Source of the DNA: Xanthobacteraceae bacterium
Lineage (GTDB): Bacteria > Pseudomonadota > Alphaproteobacteria > Rhizobiales > Xanthobacteraceae
Assembly (NCBI GenBank): GCA_029266425.1
Contig: JAQSWY010000034.1
Location: forward strand, 1-64,000
Direction: 5' to 3'
Length of the DNA stretch: 64,000 bases
Made by a program: the position numbers and the translations under genes. Shown in pieces: positions 2,573-31,242 of the stretch (position 1 is its first letter; the number at the start of each line of letters is the position of its first letter). The notes under the pieces were generated by a model. The model saw nothing but the letters and a program-made list of their open reading frames with translations. It had not been told where the DNA came from and did no database searches.

Positions 2573-2675
2573 GCTGCGCTTGCCCGATCTGTCGCGGTAC
2601 TGCGTGACTTCTCATGCGCGCTGCCGGCTGGCAAGGCGCAGCGGATGGAACGCACCTCATTTCAAAATCTTAAAA

Positions 2676-2787
2676 CGACCTCATCCTGAGGTGCGAGCGC
2701 AGCGAGCCTCGAAGGATGCAGAGGCAGCGATGGGGGGCGGGCAACCTTCGAGGCCCGGCTTTGCCGGGTACCTCAGGATGAGGTCGT
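2676..2787. repeat. Long intergenic palindrome, CCTCATCCTGAGG family, copy 1
   Basis: Outer arms CCTCATCCTGAGGT and ACCTCAGGATGAGG face each other across inner arms that include CCTCGAAGG and CCTTCGAGG, with short GC-rich hairpins between them. The whole element can fold into one long imperfect hairpin. It sits between the 3' end of the first ureohydrolase and the 5' end of the ClC gene. Four further full copies, one half copy and a fragment occur before 27.2 kb. It resembles the REP-like elements common in Hyphomicrobiales intergenic regions. It could act as a transcription end or mRNA stabiliser, but no function is shown by the sequence. Confidence 0.85.
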
Positions 2788-2789
2788 AT

Positions 2790-3746
2790 TTACCCCCCGC
2801 GATGGTGCAGCACGCGGCCGATGAAGTTCAGCAGCACTTGCGCCGCGAGGATCGAGGTGACGCCGGCGGGGTCGTATTCGCGCGCCACCTCGACCAGATC
2901 GATGCCGACGACATTTCCCCGCTTCGTCAAACCGTCCAGCAGCTCCAGCACCTCGTAATAGGCGAAGCCGCCATGGCTGGGGGTGCCGGTGCCGGGGGCG
3001 ATGGAGGGGTCGAAGCCGTCGATGTCGATGGTGACGTAATAGCGTGCGCCGGCGGGAATGCGCTCCAGCACCGCGTCGGTCCCCAGCTTGCGGATCTGCC
3101 GCACGCTGAGGATGTCGCTGCCCATCGCGCGCGCCGCCTCATAGCCCTCGCGGGCGGTGGAGGAGACGTTGCGGATGCCGAGCTGGGTCAGGCCGGTCAC
3201 ATAGGGCTTCTCCGCCGCGCGGCGCAGCGGGCTGCCATGGCCGCTGCGCACGCCGTGGCGCTCGTCGACGAAATCGAGATGGGCGTCGAACTGCACGACA
3301 TGGATCGGCGCCTCCTCGGAGAAGGCGGCAATGCAGGGGATGTTGATCGAATGGTCGCCGCCCAGCACCACGGGAAGTGCGCCAGCTTTCAGGATCTTGC
3401 GCACCGCGAACTCGATATTGTCGTGGCTGCGCGCGGTGTCGGTGTGGATCATATCTGCATCGCCGATATCGACGATGCGGGTCTTGCCGGCGGGGAGATA
3501 GACGATGTCGTCCTCATGGTCATAGGCGCCGGCATGGCCGAAGGCGAACAACGTCGAGGCCTCTCGGATCGCCCGCGGGCCGGAGCGCGCGCCGGAGCGC
3601 CATTGCGTGCCGAGATCGAACGGCGCGCCGAGGATCGCGACGTCCGCCTCGATGCGGTCCCAGTCGAGGGCGAGCGGATATTTGCCGAAGGTGCAGATGC
3701 CGACGAAGGGCAGGTCCAGCCGCCCGCTCTCATAGCCGTGACTCAT
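2790..3746 (-). CDS. Ureohydrolase (agmatinase/arginase family), last gene of the creatininase operon
   Basis: Cleaves a guanidino group to release urea; the family uses two Mn (or Ni) ions. The 318-residue protein has all metal ligands: H132 in GGDHSI, D154-H156-D158 in FDAHLDF, and D241/D243 in TIDIDGFDP, followed by PGTGTPSHGG as in agmatinases. The ATG at 3746 is chosen because it has AAAGGAGG seven bases upstream and overlaps the stop of the preceding gene as ATGA, showing translational coupling. It is a distant paralogue of the neighbouring ureohydrolase. The substrate could be agmatine, guanidinobutyrate, guanidinoacetate or another guanidino acid. Family membership is secure; the substrate is inferred only from the creatininase context. 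Confidence 0.85.
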   Translation of the reverse strand: MSHGYESGRLDLPFVGICTFGKYPLALDWDRIEADVAILGAPFDLGTQWRSGARSGPRAIREASTLFAFGHAGAYDHEDDIVYLPAGKTRIVDIGDADMIHTDTARSHDNIEFAVRKILKAGALPVVLGGDHSINIPCIAAFSEEAPIHVVQFDAHLDFVDERHGVRSGHGSPLRRAAEKPYVTGLTQLGIRNVSSTAREGYEAARAMGSDILSVRQIRKLGTDAVLERIPAGARYYVTIDIDGFDPSIAPGTGTPSHGGFAYYEVLELLDGLTKRGNVVGIDLVEVAREYDPAGVTSILAAQVLLNFIGRVLHHRGG

Positions 3747-4705
3747 CGGGCGCCTCCTTTTGCCTTCTCGACCGTGCCGGCGAGCACGCACATCAGCTCG
3801 AACATGATGGTCGCCCCGGTCAGCGCAGTGAGGCCGGACGGATCGAAGGGCGGGGCGACCTCGACGAGGTCGGCGCCGATCAGGTTCAGGCCATCGAGCC
3901 GGCGCACCATCTGCTGCGCTTCGCGGGTGGAAAAGCCGCCGATCTCCGGCGTGCCGGTGCCCGGCGCTTGCGAGGGGTCGATGCCGTCAATGTCGAAGGT
4001 CACATAGGTGCGCCCGTCGCCGACGATGGAGCGGGCCTCGTCCATCACGTCGGCAACGCCTCGCTCGACGAACTCCTCAATGAAGATCATCCGGATGCCG
4101 CAGGCTTTGGCGAAGTCGTAATTGTCGGCGGCGGAGATGGCGCCGCGCAGGCCGATCTGCACGAAGCGCTTCGGGTCCACCAGCTCTTCCTCGATGGCGC
4201 GGCGGAACGGCGTGCCGTGATTGTAGCGGCTGTGGCCGAAGAAGCTGTCATAGGTGTCGGAATGGGCGTCGAACTGGATCAGCCCGACCGGCCCGTCGCT
4301 GGCGAGGCCGCGCAGGATCGGCAGGGTCACGAGATGGTCGCCGCCGGCGGAGAGTGGACGGGCGCCGGCGTTCTTCACATCCGCATAGAAGCCGGAGATC
4401 AGGTCCAGCGTGCGCATCAGGTCGATCGGATCGATCGGCACGTCGCCGCAATCGGCGATGCGGGCGCGGTCATAGGGCGAGAGGCCGGTGACATGGTGGA
4501 CGCGCCGCGTCAGGCTCGACTGGTTGCGCAGTTCGCGCGGGCCGTGGCGGGTGCCGGCGCGATTGGTCACGCCGCCATCGAACGGTACGCCGAGAACGGC
4601 GATGTCGACCTCGGCCGGAGTTGCCAGCGGCAGCCGCATGAAGGTCGGGATGCCGGCAAAGCGCGGCACGCTGCCGGAATCGACGGGTTCGAAACGCGTG
4701 GTCAT
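3743..4705 (-). CDS. Ureohydrolase, guanidinobutyrase/guanidinopropionase-like
   Basis: A 320-residue member of the ureohydrolase family that hydrolyses a guanidino acid to urea and an amine or amino acid. The N-terminal VPRFAGIPTFMRLP block resembles the start of guanidinobutyrases. Metal ligands are H124 (GGDHL), D146-H148-D150 (FDAHSD) and D238/D240 (TFDIDGIDP), followed by APGTGTPEIGG. The usual Ser after the first metal His is Leu here. It lies upstream of and overlaps the second ureohydrolase by 4 bases and is separated from creatininase by a palindromic repeat. Together with that gene it suggests that a ring-opened guanidino compound is cleaved to urea. The exact substrate cannot be decided from sequence. 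Confidence 0.85.
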   Translation of the reverse strand: MTTRFEPVDSGSVPRFAGIPTFMRLPLATPAEVDIAVLGVPFDGGVTNRAGTRHGPRELRNQSSLTRRVHHVTGLSPYDRARIADCGDVPIDPIDLMRTLDLISGFYADVKNAGARPLSAGGDHLVTLPILRGLASDGPVGLIQFDAHSDTYDSFFGHSRYNHGTPFRRAIEEELVDPKRFVQIGLRGAISAADNYDFAKACGIRMIFIEEFVERGVADVMDEARSIVGDGRTYVTFDIDGIDPSQAPGTGTPEIGGFSTREAQQMVRRLDGLNLIGADLVEVAPPFDPSGLTALTGATIMFELMCVLAGTVEKAKGGAR

Positions 4706-20620: not shown

Positions 20621-22348
20621 TCACGTCCGCCGGATCAGCTCCAGATACTGGTGTGGCTGGCGCATCAGCACGAGATCCTTGCGGCGCACCACATTGGTCG
20701 GATAGCGGCTGTCGAGGTTCGAGGTGTCGGCCTCGCTGGCGGTGACGCCTTCGCCCGAGGCGATGATCGCCTCGCGACGTGGGAACTCGAACGTATCGGG
20801 GCCGAACACGCCGCTCTTGCCCTCATAGCCGCGGGCCTCATCAATCACATTGGCGAAGGCGAGGAACACATTGTTCTCGCCGGCGCGGGCGCGGAAATGG
20901 TGCCAGTGATGCGGGTCGGCGCCGGTCGGAATCGGGTAGTTCTGCGCCACTTTCGAGCCGGCATGCGAGGTAACGAAACGGCCCTGGATCGCTGCCGGGC
21001 AGGCGATGATATCGCAGCCGCGCAAGGCGAGGATGCGCCCTGATTCCGGGAAGGCGGCATCATGGCCGATAAGCAGGCCGACGCGGCCGAGCCGGGTGTC
21101 GAACACGCCCCATTCCTCGCCGGCACTTGCCCAGTTGCCGTCTTTGGCGTCGAGATGGATCTTGCGATAGGCGCCGACGCGGCCCTCCGGCCCGATCAGC
21201 ACGGCGCTGTTGTAGCGCCGCTCGCCATCCGCCTCCGCAAGGCCGGCGACGATGTAGAGGCCGTGGCGCGCGGCGATCGCTGCCAGCCGCTCGGTCGCTG
21301 GGCCGGGGATCGCCTGCGCCGCCAGCTCGTCGAGCCCGGTTATGGCGCGCTCGGGGAAAACCACCATCTCGGCGCCCTCGTCGCGCTTCGCGGCAAGGGC
21401 GAGTTCCTCGATACGGTCGAGATTGGCGGCGCTGTCGTTGGTCGGCGCGAACTGCGCGACGGCGATCCGCGCCCGGCCACCCGGCGGCAGCGGGCGGTGG
21501 CCATAGAGGCCGAAGAAATCGAGCGGGTTCCAGCTATAGGTAGTGGTCGGCAGCTCCATATAGAGCTCGGGCCGGCGCTGCCCGAACACCGGCTCGTCGA
21601 AGACGCGGCGTTCGCGTGCGCGGTCGAGGTCGATCTCCGCGAGCGCGACGCCGTCGCCGCCATCGATCACGGCGTCGATCGTGCCATCCGGGGCGATCAC
21701 GCAGCTGCCGCCGGAGAATTGCACGGTGCGCTCCAGGCCCCAGCGATTGGACTCGATCAGATAGCAGCCATTCTCGAAGGCACGGCTGATCCAGTAGGGC
21801 GCCGGGGTGCGCTCGGCCAGCCAGTTGGAGATATGGCAGATGACGTCGGCGCCTCCGAGCGCGGCGAGCCGCGCGGTCTCGACGAAATGGATGTCCATGC
21901 AGATCAGCAGCGCGACGCGCCCGACCGGGGTGTCGAACACCTGATGGCCGAGATCGCCCGGCGCCGACCATTTCGGCTCCGAAATATAGGGATGGGTCTT
22001 GCGGTGCTTGCCGACGACCCCTTCGGGGCCGACCAGCACCGCGCTGTTGTAATAGAGGCCGCTCGCCGCATCGACCTCGGGCATGCCGACGACGATGTAG
22101 CAATCGTGCTTCGCTGCCAGTTCCTGGAAGCGCTCCGTGGTCGGGCCGGGAATAGTCTCGACGAAGGGCGCGACCTCCTCGCGGTCGAACCAGCAATAGC
22201 CGGTGGTGCCCATTTCCGGCGTCACGATCAGCCGGGCGCCCGACTGCGCCGCCTCTTCGACCAGCGTCAGCAGGCCCGCGATGTTGCGGTCCTTCTCGAA
22301 CATGGTCGGTTCGAACTGGACGGCGGCAACCTTGTGAAGCGTCGGCAT
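20621..22348 (-). CDS. Tandem nitrilase-superfamily amidohydrolase; second domain lacks catalytic Cys
   Basis: A 575-residue protein with two carbon-nitrogen hydrolase domains in one chain. Domain 1 (about 1-265) has the full triad: E45 in TPEMG, K117 in KHRKTHPY and C150 in LLICMDIHF. Domain 2 (about 293-565) keeps E333 (FPERA) and K396 (AYRKIHL), but the nucleophile is replaced in LLIGHD (G428). It is therefore probably inactive and structural or regulatory. Single-domain relatives are about 270-300 residues. The start at 22348 has GAGAGGTG upstream, and the upstream in-frame ATG lacks one. It lies 3' of the formamidase and transporter genes and likely releases ammonia from an amide or nitrile. 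Exact substrate unknown. Confidence 0.85.
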   Translation of the reverse strand: MPTLHKVAAVQFEPTMFEKDRNIAGLLTLVEEAAQSGARLIVTPEMGTTGYCWFDREEVAPFVETIPGPTTERFQELAAKHDCYIVVGMPEVDAASGLYYNSAVLVGPEGVVGKHRKTHPYISEPKWSAPGDLGHQVFDTPVGRVALLICMDIHFVETARLAALGGADVICHISNWLAERTPAPYWISRAFENGCYLIESNRWGLERTVQFSGGSCVIAPDGTIDAVIDGGDGVALAEIDLDRARERRVFDEPVFGQRRPELYMELPTTTYSWNPLDFFGLYGHRPLPPGGRARIAVAQFAPTNDSAANLDRIEELALAAKRDEGAEMVVFPERAITGLDELAAQAIPGPATERLAAIAARHGLYIVAGLAEADGERRYNSAVLIGPEGRVGAYRKIHLDAKDGNWASAGEEWGVFDTRLGRVGLLIGHDAAFPESGRILALRGCDIIACPAAIQGRFVTSHAGSKVAQNYPIPTGADPHHWHHFRARAGENNVFLAFANVIDEARGYEGKSGVFGPDTFEFPRREAIIASGEGVTASEADTSNLDSRYPTNVVRRKDLVLMRQPHQYLELIRRT

Positions 22349-22393
22349 GGGCACCTCTCGGGCATGGGAAGGCATGGGCCTGAGACAAAATTC

Positions 22394-22544: not shown

Positions 22545-23546
22545 TCAGACCAGGAAGGACTTCTTGATCGAGGCGCCCATCGTGTATTTCGGGTCGACCA
22601 TGTTGCCGAGACGGACGCGGCCGCACTGGGTCAGCAGCATGTAGGCCTCGATCTCCTCATAGCCGTAGTCGGCCGCCATCCAGCGGATCAGGTCGCGATA
22701 GGCCATGCGGGTGGCGTCTTCCATCGGCCGGCTGGAGCCGATGGACATGATGAAGTCCTTGGTCTCGAGACGCGGAATGCGGACCGACCAGCCCTTGATG
22801 AGATCGATCTGGATGGTGGAAACGGTGGGGTGCTCGATGGCGACGCCGCAGAGTTCGCCGTCGCCCTGCGCAGCATGGCAGTCGCCGAGATAGAGCAGGG
22901 CGCCCTTGCGGTTCACCGGCAGATAGATGATGGCGCCGACGCCGACATCCGGCAGGTCCATGTTGCCGCCGTAATAATCCGGCTGCAGCGCGGTGATCGC
23001 CTCGATCTCCGGAGATGTCCCGATGGTGCCGATGAACGGCTCATAGGGAAGCGTGATCTTGTCGTTCCACCTGGTGCCGTTCTCGTCGATGTGCAGCTTC
23101 TTCACCCGCTCGGGCAGCGGCGCGTTCATCATCGCGGTGTCCGCGGTCGGCACCAGGCCGCCGAAGTTCGGCATGATGACGGTGGTGCCGCGCGGCTGCT
23201 CGCCGCGGGGGACGATGCTCTTGATGTAGACCGCGAGCGTGTCGCCCTTCTCCGCGCCATTGACGAAGATCGGACCGTTCTGCGGGTTGAGATAGGGGAA
23301 GTTGAGGATCTCGGTCGGCTTGTCGGTCTCGTACCTGATCTGGCCCTCGAAGGCGTCGTGGGTCTCGGCCGAGACCACCGCGCCGGGATCGACGGTCAGC
23401 ACCGGATCGACATAGGGACCGTAGACATAGTGGTACTTGCCCTGCACCGCCTCGGTGATGGCGTGGGACTGCCCGGCGCGGCCCTTGGCGAGACCTCTGC
23501 GAGCCATGATGGAATCGTCGAGCCAGGACGTTTCGTGAGACGACAT
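22545..23546 (-). CDS. fmdA: Acetamidase/formamidase family enzyme
   Basis: Hydrolyses short aliphatic amides such as formamide or acetamide to the acid and ammonia. The 333-residue protein belongs to the FmdA/AmdA family: THDAFEGQI, PYLNPQNGPIFVNGAEKGD, GGNMDLPDVGVG, LPVNRKGALLYLGDCHAAQG and GDGELCGVAIE are conserved blocks. FmdA of Methylophilus is about 400 residues; this shorter form is common in proteobacteria. The ATG at 23546 is preceded by AAAGGAG. It follows the Urt-type transporter genes and shares their AmiC/AmiR control by position. Formamide is the most likely substrate, but acetamide or another small amide is possible. Confidence 0.85.
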   Translation of the reverse strand: MSSHETSWLDDSIMARRGLAKGRAGQSHAITEAVQGKYHYVYGPYVDPVLTVDPGAVVSAETHDAFEGQIRYETDKPTEILNFPYLNPQNGPIFVNGAEKGDTLAVYIKSIVPRGEQPRGTTVIMPNFGGLVPTADTAMMNAPLPERVKKLHIDENGTRWNDKITLPYEPFIGTIGTSPEIEAITALQPDYYGGNMDLPDVGVGAIIYLPVNRKGALLYLGDCHAAQGDGELCGVAIEHPTVSTIQIDLIKGWSVRIPRLETKDFIMSIGSSRPMEDATRMAYRDLIRWMAADYGYEEIEAYMLLTQCGRVRLGNMVDPKYTMGASIKKSFLV

Positions 23547-23572: not shown

Positions 23573-24286
23573 TCAGACGGCGAGGTGGCGGCGCATGGCG
23601 TCGCCATCGGCGAGCGCGTCGCGGTCCAGCTCGGCGACGATGCGGCCCTTGTCCATGACGTAGCAGCGCTGGGCCATGGCCCGGATCATGTCGATGTTCT
23701 GCTCGACCAGGACCACCGTGACGCCGGTCGCGCGGTTCAGCTCGACCATGATGCGGGCGATGTCCTGCACGATATTGGGCTGGATGCCCTCGGACGGCTC
23801 GTCGAGCAGGATCAGCGACGGGTCCGCCACCAGCACGCGGCCGATGGCGAGCTGCTGCTGCTGGCCGCCGGACATGGTGCCGGCGCGCTGGCTCCAGCGC
23901 TCCTTCAGGATCGGGAAATAGCCGAGCACGCGCTCGCGGTCGGCCGCCGTCACCTCGCGCTTCAGCATGCCGCCGACCTCGATGTTCTCGGCGACGCTGA
24001 GGCGCGGGAACACGTCGCGGCCCTGCGGCACGTAGCCGATGCCGAGCCGGGCGCGCTTGTGCGCAGCCTTCCGCTCGATCGCCTCGCCGCGATAGACGAT
24101 GGAGCCGTCCATTGCCGGCACGAGCCCGATCAGGCTCTTCATCAGCGTCGACTTGCCGACGCCGTTGCGGCCGATCACGGCGACAATCTCGCCTTCGCGC
24201 ACTTCGAGATCGAGCCCCTGCAGCACCGGCTTGCCGCCATAGCCGGCACGCAGGCCGAGAGTGGAGAGCAGCACTTCCCTACGCAT
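23573..24286 (-). CDS. ABC transporter ATP-binding protein, UrtE/LivF type
   Basis: A 237-residue ATPase with Walker A GRNGVGKST, signature MSGGQQQQLAIGR, Walker B LILLDEPSEGIQP and YVPQGRDVFPRLSVAENI, the pattern seen in UrtE/LivF. The start is the ATG at 24286, preceded by GGAGAAGG and overlapping the UrtD/LivG-type gene by 8 bases. With its partner it energises uptake of a small amide, urea or branched-chain-like ligand. The amide island context favours an amide. Confidence 0.9.
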   Translation of the reverse strand: MRREVLLSTLGLRAGYGGKPVLQGLDLEVREGEIVAVIGRNGVGKSTLMKSLIGLVPAMDGSIVYRGEAIERKAAHKRARLGIGYVPQGRDVFPRLSVAENIEVGGMLKREVTAADRERVLGYFPILKERWSQRAGTMSGGQQQQLAIGRVLVADPSLILLDEPSEGIQPNIVQDIARIMVELNRATGVTVVLVEQNIDMIRAMAQRCYVMDKGRIVAELDRDALADGDAMRRHLAV

Positions 24287-25010
24287 GGGCCTTCTCCGGC
24301 GCCGTTTGCCCCAGATAGATGGCGGCGACGCGCTCATCGGCGACGATCTCGTCGATCGTGCCCTGCGCGAACACCTGGCCGAGATGTAGCACCGTGACCT
24401 TCTGCGCGACCTGGCGGACGAAGGCCATGTCGTGCTCCACCGCGAGCACCGTCATGCCCTCGGCATTGAGCTGCTTGATCATGTCGCCGGTGGCGTGGGT
24501 CTCTTCCGGCGACATGCCGGCGGTAGGCTCGTCCAGCAGCAGGAGCCGCGGCCTGAGGCTGATCGCCATGCCGATCTCCAGCCACTGCTTCTGGCCATGG
24601 CTGAGATTGCCGGCGAGCTGCTTCGCCTCGGCCGCCAGCTTGAGGAATTCGAGCAGCCGGTCGACCTCCTCATGGAGGTGCGCGGGCGCGTAATGGTGCT
24701 GCATCGCGATTTCGAGGTTCTGCCGCACGCCGAGCGCCTTGAAGATGCCGGGCACCTGGAACTTCACGCTCATGCCGCGGCGGATGCGGGCGAAGGACTT
24801 CAGCGCTGTGATGTCCTCGCCGGCGAACAGGATCTGTCCGCTGCTCGGTGAGTGCTCGCCGAGGATAAGACGGAATAGCGTGCTCTTGCCGGCGCCGTTC
24901 GGCCCGATCAGGCAGTGGATCTCGCCGGGCTCGAGCGTGAGGTCGACATTGTTGGTGACGTGCAGGCCGCCGAAATGCTTGTTTAGCGCGCGGGTCTCGA
25001 TCATCGACAT
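24279..25010 (-). CDS. ABC transporter ATP-binding protein, UrtD/LivG type
   Basis: A 243-residue ATPase with Walker A GPNGAGKST, Walker B LLLLDEPTAGMSP and the modified signature LSHGQKQWLEIGMA, which is typical of UrtD rather than LivG. FQVPGIFKALGVRQNLEIAM resembles the urea transporter subunit too. It overlaps the permease stop by one base (TGATG) and the next ATPase by 8 bases. The Urt-like features suggest urea or simple amides as ligand. Confidence 0.9.
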   Translation of the reverse strand: MSMIETRALNKHFGGLHVTNNVDLTLEPGEIHCLIGPNGAGKSTLFRLILGEHSPSSGQILFAGEDITALKSFARIRRGMSVKFQVPGIFKALGVRQNLEIAMQHHYAPAHLHEEVDRLLEFLKLAAEAKQLAGNLSHGQKQWLEIGMAISLRPRLLLLDEPTAGMSPEETHATGDMIKQLNAEGMTVLAVEHDMAFVRQVAQKVTVLHLGQVFAQGTIDEIVADERVAAIYLGQTAPEKAHA

Positions 25011-27242: not shown

Positions 27243-28481
27243 TCACGGCTTCGGCGGCGGGTTGGAGGGCGTGTACTGCGCGCTCGGGTCCTTCTTGGTC
27301 AGGTCGCAGCCGGCTTCACCGAGCCAATACGGCTTGATGTTTTCCCAGACCTTCGGGAAGGAGATGGAGTGGTCGGCACCGACCTTCGCCAGATAGATAG
27401 TGTGGGACATGTGCTGGCTCTTCGGATCGAGGCAGACCTTGCCCTCGGGAGCGTCCATGCAGACGTCGCCCTTGGCGATCTCCTTGCGCAGGTCGTCGCG
27501 CTTGGTCGACTTCGCCCGCTCCACCATCTGCTTGTAGAGATAGACGGCGAGATAGGAGTTTTCGGCCTCCTGGTTCACGTACGGCTCGCTCGGGAACATC
27601 TTCTTGAACTTGGCGAAGAATTCCTTGGAGGCCGGGGTGTCGATCTCTTCGATGTAATTGGTGGTGACGTACATGTCCTTCAGGCTTGGCGGCTTGAAGC
27701 GCTTGTGCTCGTAGCCCTGGCCGACATTGACCGACGAGGCCATCGGCAGGTTCACGTTCGCCGCGGCGGCCTGCTCGTAATACGAGGCCTGTGCGGTGCC
27801 CACGAGGAGCGTCACCACGAAGTCGGGCTTGGCCTTCTGGATGTTCTGGATCGACTGCGAGAATTGCGACACGCCGAGCGGGATGAACTCCTCGCCGACC
27901 ATCTCGCCGCCATTCTCCTTGACGATGTTGCGGACCCATTCGGCGGAGATCTGGCCGAAATTGTAGTCGGCGGCGAGCGTGTAGACCTTCTTGCCGTACT
28001 TCTCCATCATCCAGGGGATGAGGGTGGAGAATTGCTGCTCGGGCACCGCGCCGGTGACGATCATGTTGGCGTCGCAGACGCCGCCCTCATACTGATTGTT
28101 GTAGAAGGCGAGCCCGTCGAACTGGTTGACGATCGGACGGTAGGCCTCGCGCGAGGCCGAGGAGAATCCGGCGAACACGGCGTCCACCTTGTCGCGCTGG
28201 AGCACGCGGCGCATGAACTCCTGATAGCGCGTGTTGTCGGACTGGGTATCGTAGATGACGAGCTCCAGCGGACGGCCATTGATGCCGCCGGCCTTGTTGA
28301 TCTCGTCGGCGGCGAGCTGGATCGCGTGCAGCTTGCCGATGGTGGCCGCGGCGAAGTCGCCGGACTGGTCTTCCAGCACGCCGAGCTTGATCGGGTCGGC
28401 GGCATAGGCCGCGCCGGCGCCGAGCACAAGCGTCCCCGTGAGGGCCGCGGCACGCAGCCCCCGCAACAACTTCCGAGACAT
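27243..28481 (-). CDS. ABC transporter binding protein for urea/short amides (Peripla_BP_6 family)
   Basis: A 412-residue secreted binding protein: signal peptide with cleavage near AYA|ADP (residue 27), then IKLGVLEDQSGDFAAATIG, ELVIYDTQSDNTRYQEFMRR and VYTLAADYNFGQISAEWVR, typical of UrtA/FmdD/amide-binding members of the Leu/Ile/Val fold. The C-terminus ends in a proline-rich tail (TPSNPPPKP). Only 20 bases separate it from the AmiR-type gene, so it is in the same transcript. It presents an amide or urea to the Urt-type permease. Confidence 0.88.
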   Translation of the reverse strand: MSRKLLRGLRAAALTGTLVLGAGAAYAADPIKLGVLEDQSGDFAAATIGKLHAIQLAADEINKAGGINGRPLELVIYDTQSDNTRYQEFMRRVLQRDKVDAVFAGFSSASREAYRPIVNQFDGLAFYNNQYEGGVCDANMIVTGAVPEQQFSTLIPWMMEKYGKKVYTLAADYNFGQISAEWVRNIVKENGGEMVGEEFIPLGVSQFSQSIQNIQKAKPDFVVTLLVGTAQASYYEQAAAANVNLPMASSVNVGQGYEHKRFKPPSLKDMYVTTNYIEEIDTPASKEFFAKFKKMFPSEPYVNQEAENSYLAVYLYKQMVERAKSTKRDDLRKEIAKGDVCMDAPEGKVCLDPKSQHMSHTIYLAKVGADHSISFPKVWENIKPYWLGEAGCDLTKKDPSAQYTPSNPPPKP

Positions 28482-28501: not shown

Positions 28502-29158
28502 TTATTTTCGGTCGGCGCGCCGGCCCATAGCGTGGGAGAGCGCCGGCCGTTCGGGCGTGTTCGCCCTGCTGCCGAGATAGTCTTCGCAGTATTCCTCGAG
28601 ACTCCGGCGCGATCGCATGCTCTCGCGCCGGAGCCGGTCATAGGCTTCGTCGTCGTCGATGCCGGCGCGGCTCATCAGGTCCACGATGGCCTTGATGACC
28701 GAGCGGCGCCCGCGACGGCGACGATCCATCTCCTCGAGACGCCCGTTCAGCTCGGCCCGCAGCAGGAACTGGTTGATGCCGAGGAACAGCGACGTGTAGA
28801 CGGCGGCGCCGTGCACCGGCTTGCGCAGGAACGAGGTGGCCCCGAGATTGATGAGGTTCTTGAGGCGGCTCGGCGCTTCCACGCCCACCAGGCCGATGAC
28901 CGGCACCGGCGGCAGGCGCGCCGGCTCCTCGATGTCGATCGCCAGCACGCCGTCGAGATCGCCGTCGACGAACACGATGTCGCGCTCCGGATTGAGCGCG
29001 GCGACGTCGAGCTGGGCGCGTCCGTCCAGGATGGCGGGGTATTCGGCGCCGACGCCGAGCTTGGCGAGCGTGCTCTCCAATGCTTCGACCGCGCTGGGAT
29101 TGGCGGTCACGATCAGTGCCCGTCCGCCATTGAAATTCTGAAGCAGCCGAGGAGCCAT
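28502..29158 (-). CDS. AmiR-type ANTAR-domain antitermination regulator
   Basis: A 218-residue RNA-binding regulator. Residues about 10-120 form a receiver-like domain without the normal phosphorylation pattern (ALIVTANPSAVEALESTLAK, VPVIGLVGVEAPSRLKNLIN). A coiled coil follows, then a C-terminal ANTAR domain (RSVIKAIVDLMSRAGIDDDE, AYDRLRRESMRSRRSLEEYC). ANTAR proteins bind paired hexaloop hairpins and block a terminator. The start at 29158 overlaps the stop of the amiC-type gene by one base (TGATG), so sensor and antiterminator are coupled, as in Pseudomonas amiCR. A candidate RNA target lies in the leader at 30325-30450. Confidence 0.88.
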   Translation of the reverse strand: MAPRLLQNFNGGRALIVTANPSAVEALESTLAKLGVGAEYPAILDGRAQLDVAALNPERDIVFVDGDLDGVLAIDIEEPARLPPVPVIGLVGVEAPSRLKNLINLGATSFLRKPVHGAAVYTSLFLGINQFLLRAELNGRLEEMDRRRRGRRSVIKAIVDLMSRAGIDDDEAYDRLRRESMRSRRSLEEYCEDYLGSRANTPERPALSHAMGRRADRK

Positions 29159-30312
29159 CACCTTACCACTCTCAGATTGGGGCCACGGGATACCGCGTAG
29201 CGCGGCGACGACTGGACGAGATAGGGGTCCGGCTTCACCGGCGCCGGCTCCTCGATGAGCAATTCGTAGCGGGCCTGTGCGGTGGATCGGCCGATACGCG
29301 GCGTGAGCCAAGCGTGCAGCGTCGCCGGTTCGATCCAGACATCGCCCTGCGGTGCGTTGAGGCGCAGATGCACCACCGCCTCTTTCACCGCGCCGACCTC
29401 GTCGGTGCCGGCGCGAGCGAGCGCGCCCGCCAGCAGCTTCACCGCGTTGTACGAGGCTTCCGCATCGGCGGAGGTGGCGGGACCATCCGGGAACGCCTTG
29501 GTATAGGCGCTCGTGAAGGCGGTGTTGGCGGGATTCTCCAGCGAAGAGAAGTAGACGCTCGAGGTCAGATGGCCGTCGACCGCCTCAAGGCCGATCTCCT
29601 CGAGCTCCGGTTCCGAGAGCGTGCAACTCGCCACCGGTATCTGCCGCGGCTGGTCGATGCCGTGCGCCCTGCAGGCGGCGCGGAAGAGGCGGAAGAAGGC
29701 ATAGGCGCTGGTGCCGATCAGATTGTTGAAGACGAAGTCCGGCCGCGCCGCGAGGATGGCGTCGACCACCTGCTGGAGCTCGGTGTCGCCGACCGCGTAG
29801 TAGCGCTCCGCCAGGACCTCGCCGCCCTGTGCGGTCATCGCCTCGCGGAAGATGCGGTTGTTCTCCCAGGCCCAGATGTAATTGGAGCCGACGCAGAAGG
29901 CGCGTGGCCCGACATTGGCCAGCATGTGGTCGACGAGGGGGAGCACATGCTGGTTCGGCGAGGCGCCGGTGTAGATGACGTTGGACGAGCTCTCGAAGCC
30001 CTCATAGTGCGAGGGATACCAGAGCAGCGCGTCGTGCTTCTCGAAGCAGGGGATCACCTCCTTGCGGCTGGAGGAGGTGTAGCAGCCGACGACGTGGCGG
30101 ATGCCGGCGCCGGTGAGTTCCTGGCTGAGCTTGGCATAACGGCGCAGATCGCCGCCCGGATTGACGATGACCGGCTCGATGGAAACGCCGGTCTGCGTCA
30201 CGGCGCTCTCGCGGAAGGCGAGGAGTGCGCCGTTCAGCATCGAGCGGGCCACCACGCAGTAGGGCCCGGTCGTTGAAAACAACACTCCGACGCGATAGTG
30301 CTTCGACGGCAT
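29158..30312 (-). CDS. AmiC-type amide sensor (cytoplasmic binding protein)
   Basis: A 384-residue protein of the periplasmic-binding fold without a signal peptide: it starts MPSKHYRVGVLFSTTGPYCV. CYTSSSRKEVIPCFEKHDALL, LLWYPSHYEGFESSSNVIY, GSNYIWAWENNRIFREAM and RYYAVGDTELQQVVDAI are AmiC/UrtA-like blocks, and the aromatic WYPSHYEGFE segment lines the amide pocket in AmiC. It should hold the ANTAR protein inactive until an amide binds. It is first in the operon and lies just after a leader terminator. The protein could also sense urea or another small ligand. Confidence 0.87.
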   Translation of the reverse strand: MPSKHYRVGVLFSTTGPYCVVARSMLNGALLAFRESAVTQTGVSIEPVIVNPGGDLRRYAKLSQELTGAGIRHVVGCYTSSSRKEVIPCFEKHDALLWYPSHYEGFESSSNVIYTGASPNQHVLPLVDHMLANVGPRAFCVGSNYIWAWENNRIFREAMTAQGGEVLAERYYAVGDTELQQVVDAILAARPDFVFNNLIGTSAYAFFRLFRAACRAHGIDQPRQIPVASCTLSEPELEEIGLEAVDGHLTSSVYFSSLENPANTAFTSAYTKAFPDGPATSADAEASYNAVKLLAGALARAGTDEVGAVKEAVVHLRLNAPQGDVWIEPATLHAWLTPRIGRSTAQARYELLIEEPAPVKPDPYLVQSSPRYAVSRGPNLRVVR

Positions 30313-30324
30313 TCGTCAGACCCA

Positions 30325-30362
30325 AAATAAAAAACGCCCGCCGGCCTATCGGCCGTGGGCGT
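30325..30362 (-). terminator. Leader attenuator terminator upstream of the amiC-type gene
   Basis: On the minus strand ACGCCC..GGGCGT with an inner CGGCC-GATA-GGCCG stem is followed by a run reading TTTTTTATTTT, a strong intrinsic terminator ending about 12 bases before the amiC-type ATG. It stands before the first gene, so it must be an attenuator rather than an end-of-operon signal. Its left stem overlaps a hexaloop hairpin, as expected for ANTAR control. Confidence 0.85.
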
Positions 30363-30371
30363 CCTTGCCAC
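30355..30371 (-). promoter_or_regulatory. Candidate ANTAR hexaloop hairpin P2, overlapping the attenuator
   Basis: Minus-strand GTGGC-AAGGAC-GCCCAC folds with a 5-base stem (one bulged C) and a six-base loop that has A at position 1 and G at position 4, the identity rule for ANTAR RNA ligands. Its 3' arm uses the GCCC of the terminator stem, so the two structures exclude each other. Confidence 0.6.
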
Positions 30372-30434
30372 CAACCACACGGGCGCGAATCTCGCGCGCG
30401 TTCGTTGGAAATGTTCCCCGGAATGGCGCGTTAA

Positions 30435-30450
30435 TAAGCATCCTTGCTCC
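30435..30450 (-). promoter_or_regulatory. Candidate ANTAR hexaloop hairpin P1
   Basis: Minus-strand GAGC-AAGGAT-GCTT gives a 4-base stem (one G-U pair) with a hexaloop again carrying A1 and G4. It lies about 65 bases before P2, a longer linker than in most described pairs, so the pairing of the two elements is tentative. A TTGACA at 30487-30492 upstream is a possible -35 box. Confidence 0.45.
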
Positions 30451-30621
30451 GCGCTCTAAATTTAGGCTCGCGCGGATCGCCGCCATTGTCAAGCGGCTTC
30501 ATGGCATCCCGCCGGCACATTTAGCCCAGCGGGACGTGGAGATGGCCGGACGAGGATCAGCGCCCTATAACAGGCACTCGGATGCCGTCGGGCGGCTCGG
30601 CATCGAACAGTGGGGGCCATC

Positions 30622-31242
30622 ATGTCTCGTCTCTTTTCCCTTGCCGGCACCTTTCGTTCCGCGCGTGCGCCGTGGCTGGCGGTGCTGCTGGCGTTCAGCC
30701 TCGCCGGTTGCGGTATCAACAATATCCCGACCAATGAGGAAAAGGCGAAGGCCGCGTGGAGTGACGTTCTCAACCAGTATCAGCGCCGCGCCGAACTGAT
30801 CCCGAACCTGGTCGAGACGGTGAAGGGCTTTGCCCAGCAGGAGAAGGACGTGCTGACGCAAGTGACGGAAGCGCGCGCCAACGCCACCTCGATTAAGGTC
30901 GATGCCTCGACCATCACCGATCCCGAGACGTTCAAGAAGTTCCAGGACGCGCAGGCCCAGCTCTCCGGCGCGCTCGGCAGGCTGCTCGCTGTCTCGGAGG
31001 CCTATCCGGACCTCAAGTCCAACCAGAACTTCCTCGCTTTGCAGTCGCAGATCGAGGGCACCGAGAACCGCATCTCCGTGGCGCGGCGCGACTATATCGA
31101 GGCGGTGCGGGTCTATAACACCGAGCTGCGCACCTATCCCGGCGCGATCTGGGCGATGACGCTCTATCGCAACAACAAGCCGATGGAGACCTTCACCATC
31201 CCTGAAGAGCAGATGAAGGTGCCGCAAGTGAAGTTCAATTGA
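30622..31242 (+). CDS. LemA family lipoprotein
   Basis: A 206-residue envelope protein. The N-terminus has a hydrophobic stretch ending in a lipobox LAFSLAGC, so it is probably a lipoprotein. NIPTNEEKAKAAWSDVLNQY, RRAELIPNLVETVKGFAQQE and the helical body that ends SLKSNQNF-like (DLKSNQNFLALQSQIEGTEN, RISVARRDYIEAVRVYN) are the LemA signature. The ATG at 30622 follows GGGGG. It is the first of three genes with two TPM-domain proteins, an association found widely in bacteria. The molecular function is unknown; a link to envelope quality control has been suggested for the family. Confidence 0.88.
   Translation: MSRLFSLAGTFRSARAPWLAVLLAFSLAGCGINNIPTNEEKAKAAWSDVLNQYQRRAELIPNLVETVKGFAQQEKDVLTQVTEARANATSIKVDASTITDPETFKKFQDAQAQLSGALGRLLAVSEAYPDLKSNQNFLALQSQIEGTENRISVARRDYIEAVRVYNTELRTYPGAIWAMTLYRNNKPMETFTIPEEQMKVPQVKFN

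Follow-up and report, generated by a model that had tools for sequence, protein, structure and literature searches.

Described targets of ANTAR proteins are dual-hexaloop RNAs in which the second hairpin (P2) overlaps a terminator, and matches to them have been reported before urea transporter genes (Ramesh et al. 2012, PMC3369931). The P. aeruginosa ami operon as a whole is under antitermination by AmiR, and amiC and amiR are themselves among its genes (PMC5259723). In E. faecalis, the eut leaders carry a dual hexaloop with an overlapping terminator, and EutV is activated by the kinase EutW (PMC8934654, PMC3369931). Bradyrhizobium NasT is an ANTAR protein freed by ligand from its sensor NasS, acting through leader hairpins (PMC6759348), and an operon on a Klebsiella plasmid combines amiC and amiR with amiE and a transporter (PMC13209695). 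Here we analyse the leader of an amiC-amiR operon in a 64,000-nt stretch of Xanthobacteraceae DNA (the window, meaning the whole stretch).

Like the ANTAR target RNA of PMC3369931, the window leader combines two short hairpins with six-base A1/G4 loops, an overlapping terminator and adjoining nitrogen genes. Unlike the targets in the available parts of that paper, window-type leaders have a longer first hairpin (P1) with a covarying outer helix near the transcript 5' end, and amiC-amiR leaders have linkers that are 18-27 nt long or bear a hairpin, with a loop rule relaxed in certain lineages. The AmiC sensor, AmiR antiterminator, leader terminator and inclusion of amiC and amiR in the controlled operon are shared with P. 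aeruginosa amiEBCRS (PMC5259723, PMC3369936), where the amidase gene comes first, whereas in the window the sensor and regulator genes lead and those for a urea/amide-type ABC transporter and an FmdA-type amidase follow. The eut system shares the dual hexaloop, the overlapping terminator and several hairpin-contact residues of EutV, and differs in its kinase activation and its linkers of 5-12 nt (PMC8934654, PMC3369931). NasT/NasS occurs in the same host groups, yet it is a nitrate sensor system with a nitrate/denitrification regulon and targets such as the nosR and nirA leaders (PMC6759348); the Klebsiella plasmid operon likewise has sensor and regulator together with transporter and amidase, the amidase being of AmiE type (PMC13209695). 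The initial annotation had set self-antitermination apart from a classical system in which AmiR serves only a separate amidase gene, a contrast that does not hold given the P. aeruginosa operon. Relative to these published systems, the extended P1, the structured linker, the relaxed loop rule and the sensor-first gene order appear to be new. Our literature search found no published description of this leader. The main text of PMC3369931 nowhere contains the terms Bradyrhizobium, Rhodopseudomonas, Methylobacterium, alphaproteobacteria or rhizobi, although its supplementary tables may list some rhizobial members.

The operon encodes the following proteins:

29158..30312, minus strand: amiC-like ligand sensor (Peripla_BP_5; best PDB matches AmiC 1qnl and 1pea/1qo0)
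28502..29158, minus strand: amiR-like ANTAR protein (PF03861 over cut-off; best PDB match AmiR 1qo0_D)
27243..28481, minus strand: ABC transporter substrate-binding protein (TIGR03669 over cut-off)
26965-26093 and 26074-25010, minus strand: two ABC permeases, UrtB/UrtC-like, below curated cut-offs
23573..25010, minus strand: two ABC ATPases, UrtD/UrtE-like, below curated cut-offs
22545..23546, minus strand: acetamidase/formamidase family protein (FmdA-type; PF03069)
20621..22375, minus strand: protein of 584 aa, a single chain with two carbon-nitrogen hydrolase stretches (PF00795)

All of these genes, from amiC to the nitrilase-type gene, are collinear downstream of the leader, and the amiR start overlaps the amiC stop. 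In a PDB sequence search the sensor matched 1qnl_A with an E-value of 5.7e-69, and the window AmiR matched 1qo0_D over residues 80-198 (E 2.2e-7), with EutV also among its PDB matches; the AmiR_N model reached 22.3 bits, under its cut-off of 27. An ANTAR protein is thus encoded in the operon, as the initial annotation had stated. TIGR03669 is an 'archaeal' urea transporter model, and the neighbouring permeases and ATPases fall under the Urt cut-offs; the compound transported may not be urea.

To compare loci, we gathered relatives with an alignment of 11 AmiC orthologues and took the best 80 of 171 from the genome collection, which came from Ancylobacter, Bosea, Kaistia, Labrys, Bradyrhizobium, Tardiphaga, Rhodopseudomonas, Methylobacterium, Xanthobacter, Mesorhizobium, Nitratireductor, Azospirillum and others. 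The order amiC-amiR-transporter-formamidase was kept in 74 of these 80 loci: 57 had the full arrangement of amiC, amiR, substrate-binding protein, both permeases, both ATPases, fmdA and nitrilase, and 17 had the transporter-bearing order without a nitrilase gene, which is absent or lies beyond the examined stretch. A compact amiC-amiR-fmdA arrangement occurred in 6 of the 80, and in the four listed the substrate-binding match is AmiC itself at 23-24%. In six plasmid records, taken from 1168 with an AmiC match, amiC-like and ANTAR genes precede genes for an ABC transporter.

The minus-strand leader (about 30457-30313) runs from a TTGACA promoter through P1, a middle hairpin (M), P2 and the terminator to amiC:

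30487..30492, minus strand: TTGACA, a -35-like element (sequence)
30468-30462, minus strand: AGCCTAA, a putative -10-like element (sequence)
30426..30454, minus strand: P1, a two-part hairpin (sequence, centroid fold, relatives, covariation)
30371..30408, minus strand: M, with a CCAAC/GTTGG lower helix and a variable upper helix (fold, covariation)
30358..30369, minus strand: P2, the predicted antiterminator hairpin GGC-AAGGAC-GCC (sequence, fold, relatives)
30324..30363, minus strand: intrinsic terminator, stem about 30363-30333 and U-rich tail 30334-30324 (fold, covariation)

The transcript probably starts near 30457. The outer helix of P1 is GCGCG/CGCGC (30454-30450 with 30430-30426) and its inner helix GAGC/GCTT, with attaa between GCTT and CGCGC; the inner helix corresponds to the AGC-AAGGAT-GCT hairpin of the initial annotation, whose hexaloop AAGGAT spans 30445-30440. 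A gap of 17 nt separates P1 from M, which ends 1 nt before P2. The P2 loop AAGGAC occupies 30366-30361, and P2's 3' GCC together with the last three loop bases belongs to the terminator left arm, so P2 and the terminator are mutually exclusive. The window leader is therefore one with two hairpins of at least 3 bp and six-base loops that both have A1 and G4, the second overlapping an intrinsic terminator, as ANTAR targets do. The scored terminator segment has -25.5 kcal/mol, and the amiC ATG at 30312 lies 16 nt past the end of the first U run and 11 nt past the last U, where about 12 bases had been noted. Every element noted earlier was thus present, including the P2 overlap with its GCC in common; TTGACA, the P1 outer helix and M had gone unreported.

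Taken by itself, the window leader is only modestly better folded than chance: its z-score is -2.0, and 10 of 200 shuffles fold equally well. A generic promoter scan and a simple terminator scan of the window reported neither element; an asymmetric internal loop in the terminator stem and a -10 box unlike TATAAT probably explain this. Rfam gave no match at curated thresholds in the window, with two matches at E up to 1 that were far below gathering scores. While the single sequence leaves doubt about a chance origin, the relatives confirm that the leader structure is real, because its pairs covary and it is recovered by a model built without the window leader.

Folding the leaders of the window and the best 80 of 171 relatives placed a terminator before amiC in 77 of 81. 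A hexaloop hairpin overlapped its left arm in 76 of these 77, a count made without a shuffle control, leaving 5 of 81 leaders that lack the terminator or the overlapping hairpin. A simple stem scan had found terminators in only 23 of the 81 leaders, some misplaced, because the real stem has an internal loop, and was replaced by folding. The best score for an extended P1-like hairpin had a median of 13.7 in real leaders versus 6.6 in five dinucleotide shuffles of each, and a score of 15 was reached by 24.7% of real leaders versus 1.2% of shuffles, some of the best real hairpins being M rather than P1. TTGAC stood upstream of P2 in all 81 leaders (in L050 and L089 as read from the sequence, the automatic picks there being wrong), and its distance to the P1 loop was 47 nt in 93 of 115 parsed leaders (search range 44-65). 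A sigma-70-like start would then place the first transcribed bases at the P1 outer helix; by sequence, this near-fixed promoter position upstream of P1 speaks against a start downstream of the terminator, which the initial annotation had raised as a contrary outcome.

Covariation was measured in an alignment (A2) of 61 leaders with the CCAAC/GTTGG hairpin, and P1, M and the terminator covary across them, in line with the compensatory changes that the initial annotation had suggested looking for. For P1, M and P2 together, 91.5% of cells were paired and 11 of 23 pairs had changed on both sides, a number of changes reached by 1 of 500 shuffles; the other four measures were reached by none, and the structure slid along the alignment paired only 36-46%. 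For the terminator, 96.7% of cells were paired and 7 of 13 pairs had changed on both sides (0 of 500 shuffles), while for further pair types 46 of 500 shuffles did as well. The register tested for the P1 outer helix was that of Bradyrhizobium and Ancylobacter, in which the innermost outer pair is unpaired in 17 of 61 leaders; the window pairs two columns further on. The M upper helix was 74.6% paired, a shortfall that comes partly from a one-column alignment shift. The inner helix of P1 can change, as in L138 and L140, which have CCTC/GAGG in place of GGGC/GCCC around a loop, AACGGC, that keeps A1 and G4. The P2 stem is invariant in 61 of 61 leaders, so covariation speaks neither for it nor against it; the terminator constrains its GCC as well, yet its 5' GGC lies outside the terminator and is equally invariant.

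We consider it highly probable that the leader, standing at the 5' end of the amiC-amiR-transporter-fmdA-nitrilase mRNA, works as a transcription attenuator of the ANTAR type. It is predicted to act through AmiR that, once freed by ligand, would attach to both P1 and P2 and so keep transcription of its own operon from ending early. Without ligand, AmiC would hold AmiR, the stronger terminator would form and transcription would halt just before amiC. An amide or urea-like ligand would cause AmiC to free AmiR, which would contact the emerging P1 loop first and the P2 loop next, so that P2's GCC would be withheld from the terminator. RNA polymerase could then read the whole operon, amiC and amiR included, giving a positive feedback that would need some basal read-through. 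For the full window leader the terminator fold has -60.7 versus -51.6 kcal/mol for the constrained P1+M+P2 antiterminator; because the terminator fold is favoured, the default state is off. When the leader RNA was ended before the terminator right arm, P2 pairing was 0.65 in the window and had a median of 0.16 over the 61 leaders. P2, with its low pairing and a favoured terminator, thus needs help, consistent with a protein stabilising it. Weighing against this account are the invariance of the P2 stem, the low median P2 pairing, leaders without a parsed P1 hexaloop or without a terminator and overlapping hairpin, the relaxed loop rule, three AmiR residues that differ from EutV contact positions, and the linker lengths that failed in eut. 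On balance the earlier reading of a self-antiterminating leader is supported by these comparisons, which suggest how rhizobia and relatives may regulate a widely conserved amide/urea-type uptake operon.

We built two models of the leader to search genomes. Model R2 was made from 27 leaders without M from Methylobacterium, Rhizobiaceae and similar genomes, the window leader left out; in the window's own 5.67 Mb genome its single strong match was the window leader (E 8e-11), the next being at 0.317. Model R1, built from alignment A2 with the window leader included, matched the window leader with an E-value of 4.6e-31, followed at 0.0136 by a site on contig C26 that overlaps predicted reading frames on both strands. 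Across 61 family genomes R1 gave six matches below 1e-30, each directly before an amiC orthologue, and a next match at 2.2e-5; it is exactly in these six, among the 61, that the amiC match reaches 63% identity. Because R1 had been built with at least four of these leaders, counting the window's, the result supports specificity more than discovery. Weak R1 matches in other family genomes (E 2e-5 to 0.1; loci L194-L214) could be other ANTAR targets or plain terminators. Among 16 further sources, R2 had matches at E up to 1 in six, namely Rhizobium sp. WL3 (9e-12), Skermanella (1.6e-5), Paracoccus aminophilus (1.8e-4) and, more weakly, L143 (0.02), L179 (0.13) and L223 (0.21), and none in the other 10.

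These searches bear on whether the leader might instead be the target of another ANTAR protein of the cell, or be shared by several. The window genome carries three such proteins, including a NasT-like one on contig C30 and a second AmiR on C220, and the contacts of EutV to its hairpin are mostly with the backbone in the account of PMC8934654, so cross-talk is conceivable. We nevertheless regard this as very unlikely: the terminator with its overlapping hexaloop precedes amiC-amiR in 76 of 81 leaders, and the strong R1 matches fall in just the six of 61 genomes that have the amiC orthologue. Neither R1 nor R2 found a second copy of the leader or a trans target of its type in the window genome (dual hexaloops of another shape would be missed), R2 had no match on the C220 and C30 stretches, and the second amiC has no A1/G4 hexaloop hairpin with at least two G-C among three closing pairs in the 330 nt before its match (about 288 nt before its likely start).

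A conserved, structured leader before a transporter and catabolic operon would also suit a riboswitch in which P1 together with M recognises a small molecule and itself governs the terminator. That reading is highly improbable when set against the ANTAR protein encoded in the operon, the lack of an Rfam family at curated threshold, and the linker itself, since 26 of 100 leaders have no room for M and other lineages have unrelated hairpins in its place. The P1 loop contains an ATG from which a closed 31-codon frame starts in the window, as ribosome-mediated attenuation by a short leader peptide might use; closed ATG frames of at least 12 codons occur in only 14 of 81 leaders, at varying positions (GTG and TTG starts not counted), and we give this mechanism hardly any credence. 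That a constitutive terminator of unrelated upstream transcription merely happens to adjoin accidental P1 and P2 hairpins is barely conceivable, for short hairpins are indeed common in GC-rich DNA and the single-sequence z-score is modest, but the upstream lemA-like gene (30610-31239) is divergent from the amiC operon, so that the terminator does not serve it, and the leader shows both covariation and recovery by the model.

Returning to attenuation by AmiR, we compared the loops that it would read. The window and its relatives gave 137 leaders, 123 after dropping 14 duplicates, with near-duplicates remaining (L121, for example, comes from the L055 genome). Parsing that left A1 and G4 free gave a P1 in 115 of the 123 and a P2 in 111; these counts retain misparsed rows (L050, where TTCGGC was chosen over AGTTCG, and L122, L133 and L140 for P2) and the probably chance parses of L143, L144, L177 and L179. 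In P1, A1 was present in 111 of 115 leaders and G4 in 83; in P2, A1 was present in 58 of 111 and G4 in 95. Both window loops follow the A1/G4 rule as the initial annotation had read them, but the rule is not fixed in relatives, only 46 of 106 leaders being strict in both loops. Its relaxation in the amiC-amiR leader group seems new relative to published accounts. Bradyrhizobium and Rhodopseudomonas have often lost the P1 G4 (AGCTCA, AAGACG, AACTAA), and most of these have G at the first position of the P2 loop (GAGGGC), as does Xanthobacter. Conservation of P2 loop positions 4-6 does not reflect protein binding only, because those bases can pair in the terminator. The 8 of 123 leaders without a parsed P1 hexaloop include the close relatives L055/L121 (one genome) and L089; in L055 and L089, both Bradyrhizobium, the P1 loop region has 7 nt (GGGC-AACGGTT-GCCC, or a longer pairing), which breaks the hexaloop form.

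In EutV, G4 is the base singled out for contact, and Glu160 is one of the residues hydrogen-bonding it, according to PMC8934654. Matching residues by eye in an ungapped alignment, we found the loop-contact residues R142, Y164, R168, M172 and R175 identical in the window AmiR, D in place of E160, and I, R and S at the positions of K149, N173 and R177. Among 105 leaders with both loops parsed and a readable AmiR motif, 63 had D at position 160, with G4 in both loops in 58 and in one loop in 5; 39 had E, with G4 in both loops in 9, in one in 28 and in neither in 2 (L063, L090). The remaining three, Mesorhizobium ephedrae L107 with H, Nitratireductor aestuarii L112 with Y and the leader L154, also with Y, all lack G4 in both loops (AAGCAG/AAGCGT, AGGTGA/AAGAAT and AGATGA/AAGAGT). 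The AmiR proteins of L139 and L144 have other residues at 160, and their leaders were not parsed in both loops. A change of loop specificity in the AmiR proteins of L107, L112 and L154 is possible. E160 is found mostly in Bradyrhizobium and its kin, H/Y probably belongs to one clade, and H/Y160 with loss of G4 is probably a single evolutionary event confounded by descent. The relation between loop and residue 160 is only a lead, because L063 and L090 lost G4 with E160, EutV has E160 with G4 loops, and descent confounds the comparison.

The comparative set exceeds 100 leaders, almost every one accompanied by an AmiR from its own operon, and also bears on a question of ANTAR antitermination, whether the dimer must reach two loops at a fixed distance. 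In the eut system, linkers of 3 or 14 nt strongly reduce induction (PMC3369931) and an added 20 nt abolishes antitermination (PMC8934654), whereas amiC-amiR leaders use 18-27 nt of single strand. Linkers of 2-25 nt were accepted in actinobacteria (PMC8164766), and PMC3369931 describes the linker as variable. The window linker of 56 nt lies outside the 2-25 nt range, which is the curation limit of a single actinobacterial study and does not define the mechanism; with M left out, 18 nt of single strand remain. Of 100 parsed leaders (L122, L133, L138, L140, L143, L144 and L177 excluded), 26 had linkers of 18-27 nt (median 22; 22 of them at most 25 nt) and 74 had longer ones (median 52). When the long linkers were folded by themselves, 63 of 74 had their largest hairpin 1 nt before P2, seven had it at 0 nt and one each at 2, 4, 5 or 47 nt; 59 of the 74 had 18-21 nt of single strand left over. 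Long linkers fold moderately better than mononucleotide shuffles (median z -1.4); for the CCAAC-type linkers, covariation is the stronger evidence.

The inserted hairpins are unrelated in sequence between lineages: CCAAC.. in Xanthobacteraceae, Kaistia and Labrys, CGGG.. in Xanthobacter L104, AGCCA.. in Mesorhizobium Root102 (L103) and GGCGCG.. in L132 and L134. A hairpin placed 1 nt before P2 in long linkers, leaving about 19 nt of single strand as in the plain 18-27 nt linkers, appears to be new relative to published accounts. We infer that single strands staying close to 18-22 nt, with hairpins added flush to P2, are consistent with a limit on distance that coaxial insertion preserves. M, flush against P2, would hold the single strand from P1 to P2 at roughly 18-21 nt; by stacking on P2, whose stem is only 3 bp, it may also stabilise that hairpin. 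Whether alphaproteobacterial amiC-amiR leaders form a distinct ANTAR target class with a spacing ruler is a proposal to which we give about even credence: some 18-22 nt of single strand would separate P1 from P2, lineage hairpins of unrelated sequence one base before P2 would stack on its 3-bp stem with the distance unchanged, and loop reading by AmiR may also have drifted (H/Y for D/E at EutV position 160 in three leaders, with G4 lost in both loops). Hairpins inserted naturally at one constant place, and loops that vary naturally next to an AmiR whose sequence the operon itself supplies, make models of spacing and loop recognition directly testable.

With L107 as the query, AmiC matches at E up to 1e-100 occurred in 31 of 397 genomes sampled in the order. 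Matches up to 1e-120 occurred in 22 of 394 genomes in the family of L107's genome; in the phylum, 10 of 398 sampled genomes, the window's included, had matches up to 1e-90, and all ten belong to the window's class. For AmiC genes more distant from the query used (about 41-53% identity), a leader could mostly not be recognised, with no clear P1/P2 in L139, L141, L142, L144 and L178. The second AmiC-AmiR pair of the window genome (L114, G000:C220:22000-30500; minus strand, 2626-3777 and 1999-2613) has 43% identity to the window AmiC; by eye, it is followed by a nitrilase-type gene and preceded by ABC-transporter-like reading frames. About 165-250 nt upstream of this second amiC match, the intergenic region holds a palindromic stretch, CATCCCCGGACTTGATCCGGG with its reverse complement. 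On plasmid pRL11 of Rhizobium johnstonii (L224, upstream of 2986), R2 did not find a leader before a different AmiC-AmiR-ABC operon with 41.6% identity; the leader there carries GGGC-AGTTTC-GCCC and is perhaps a related attenuator.
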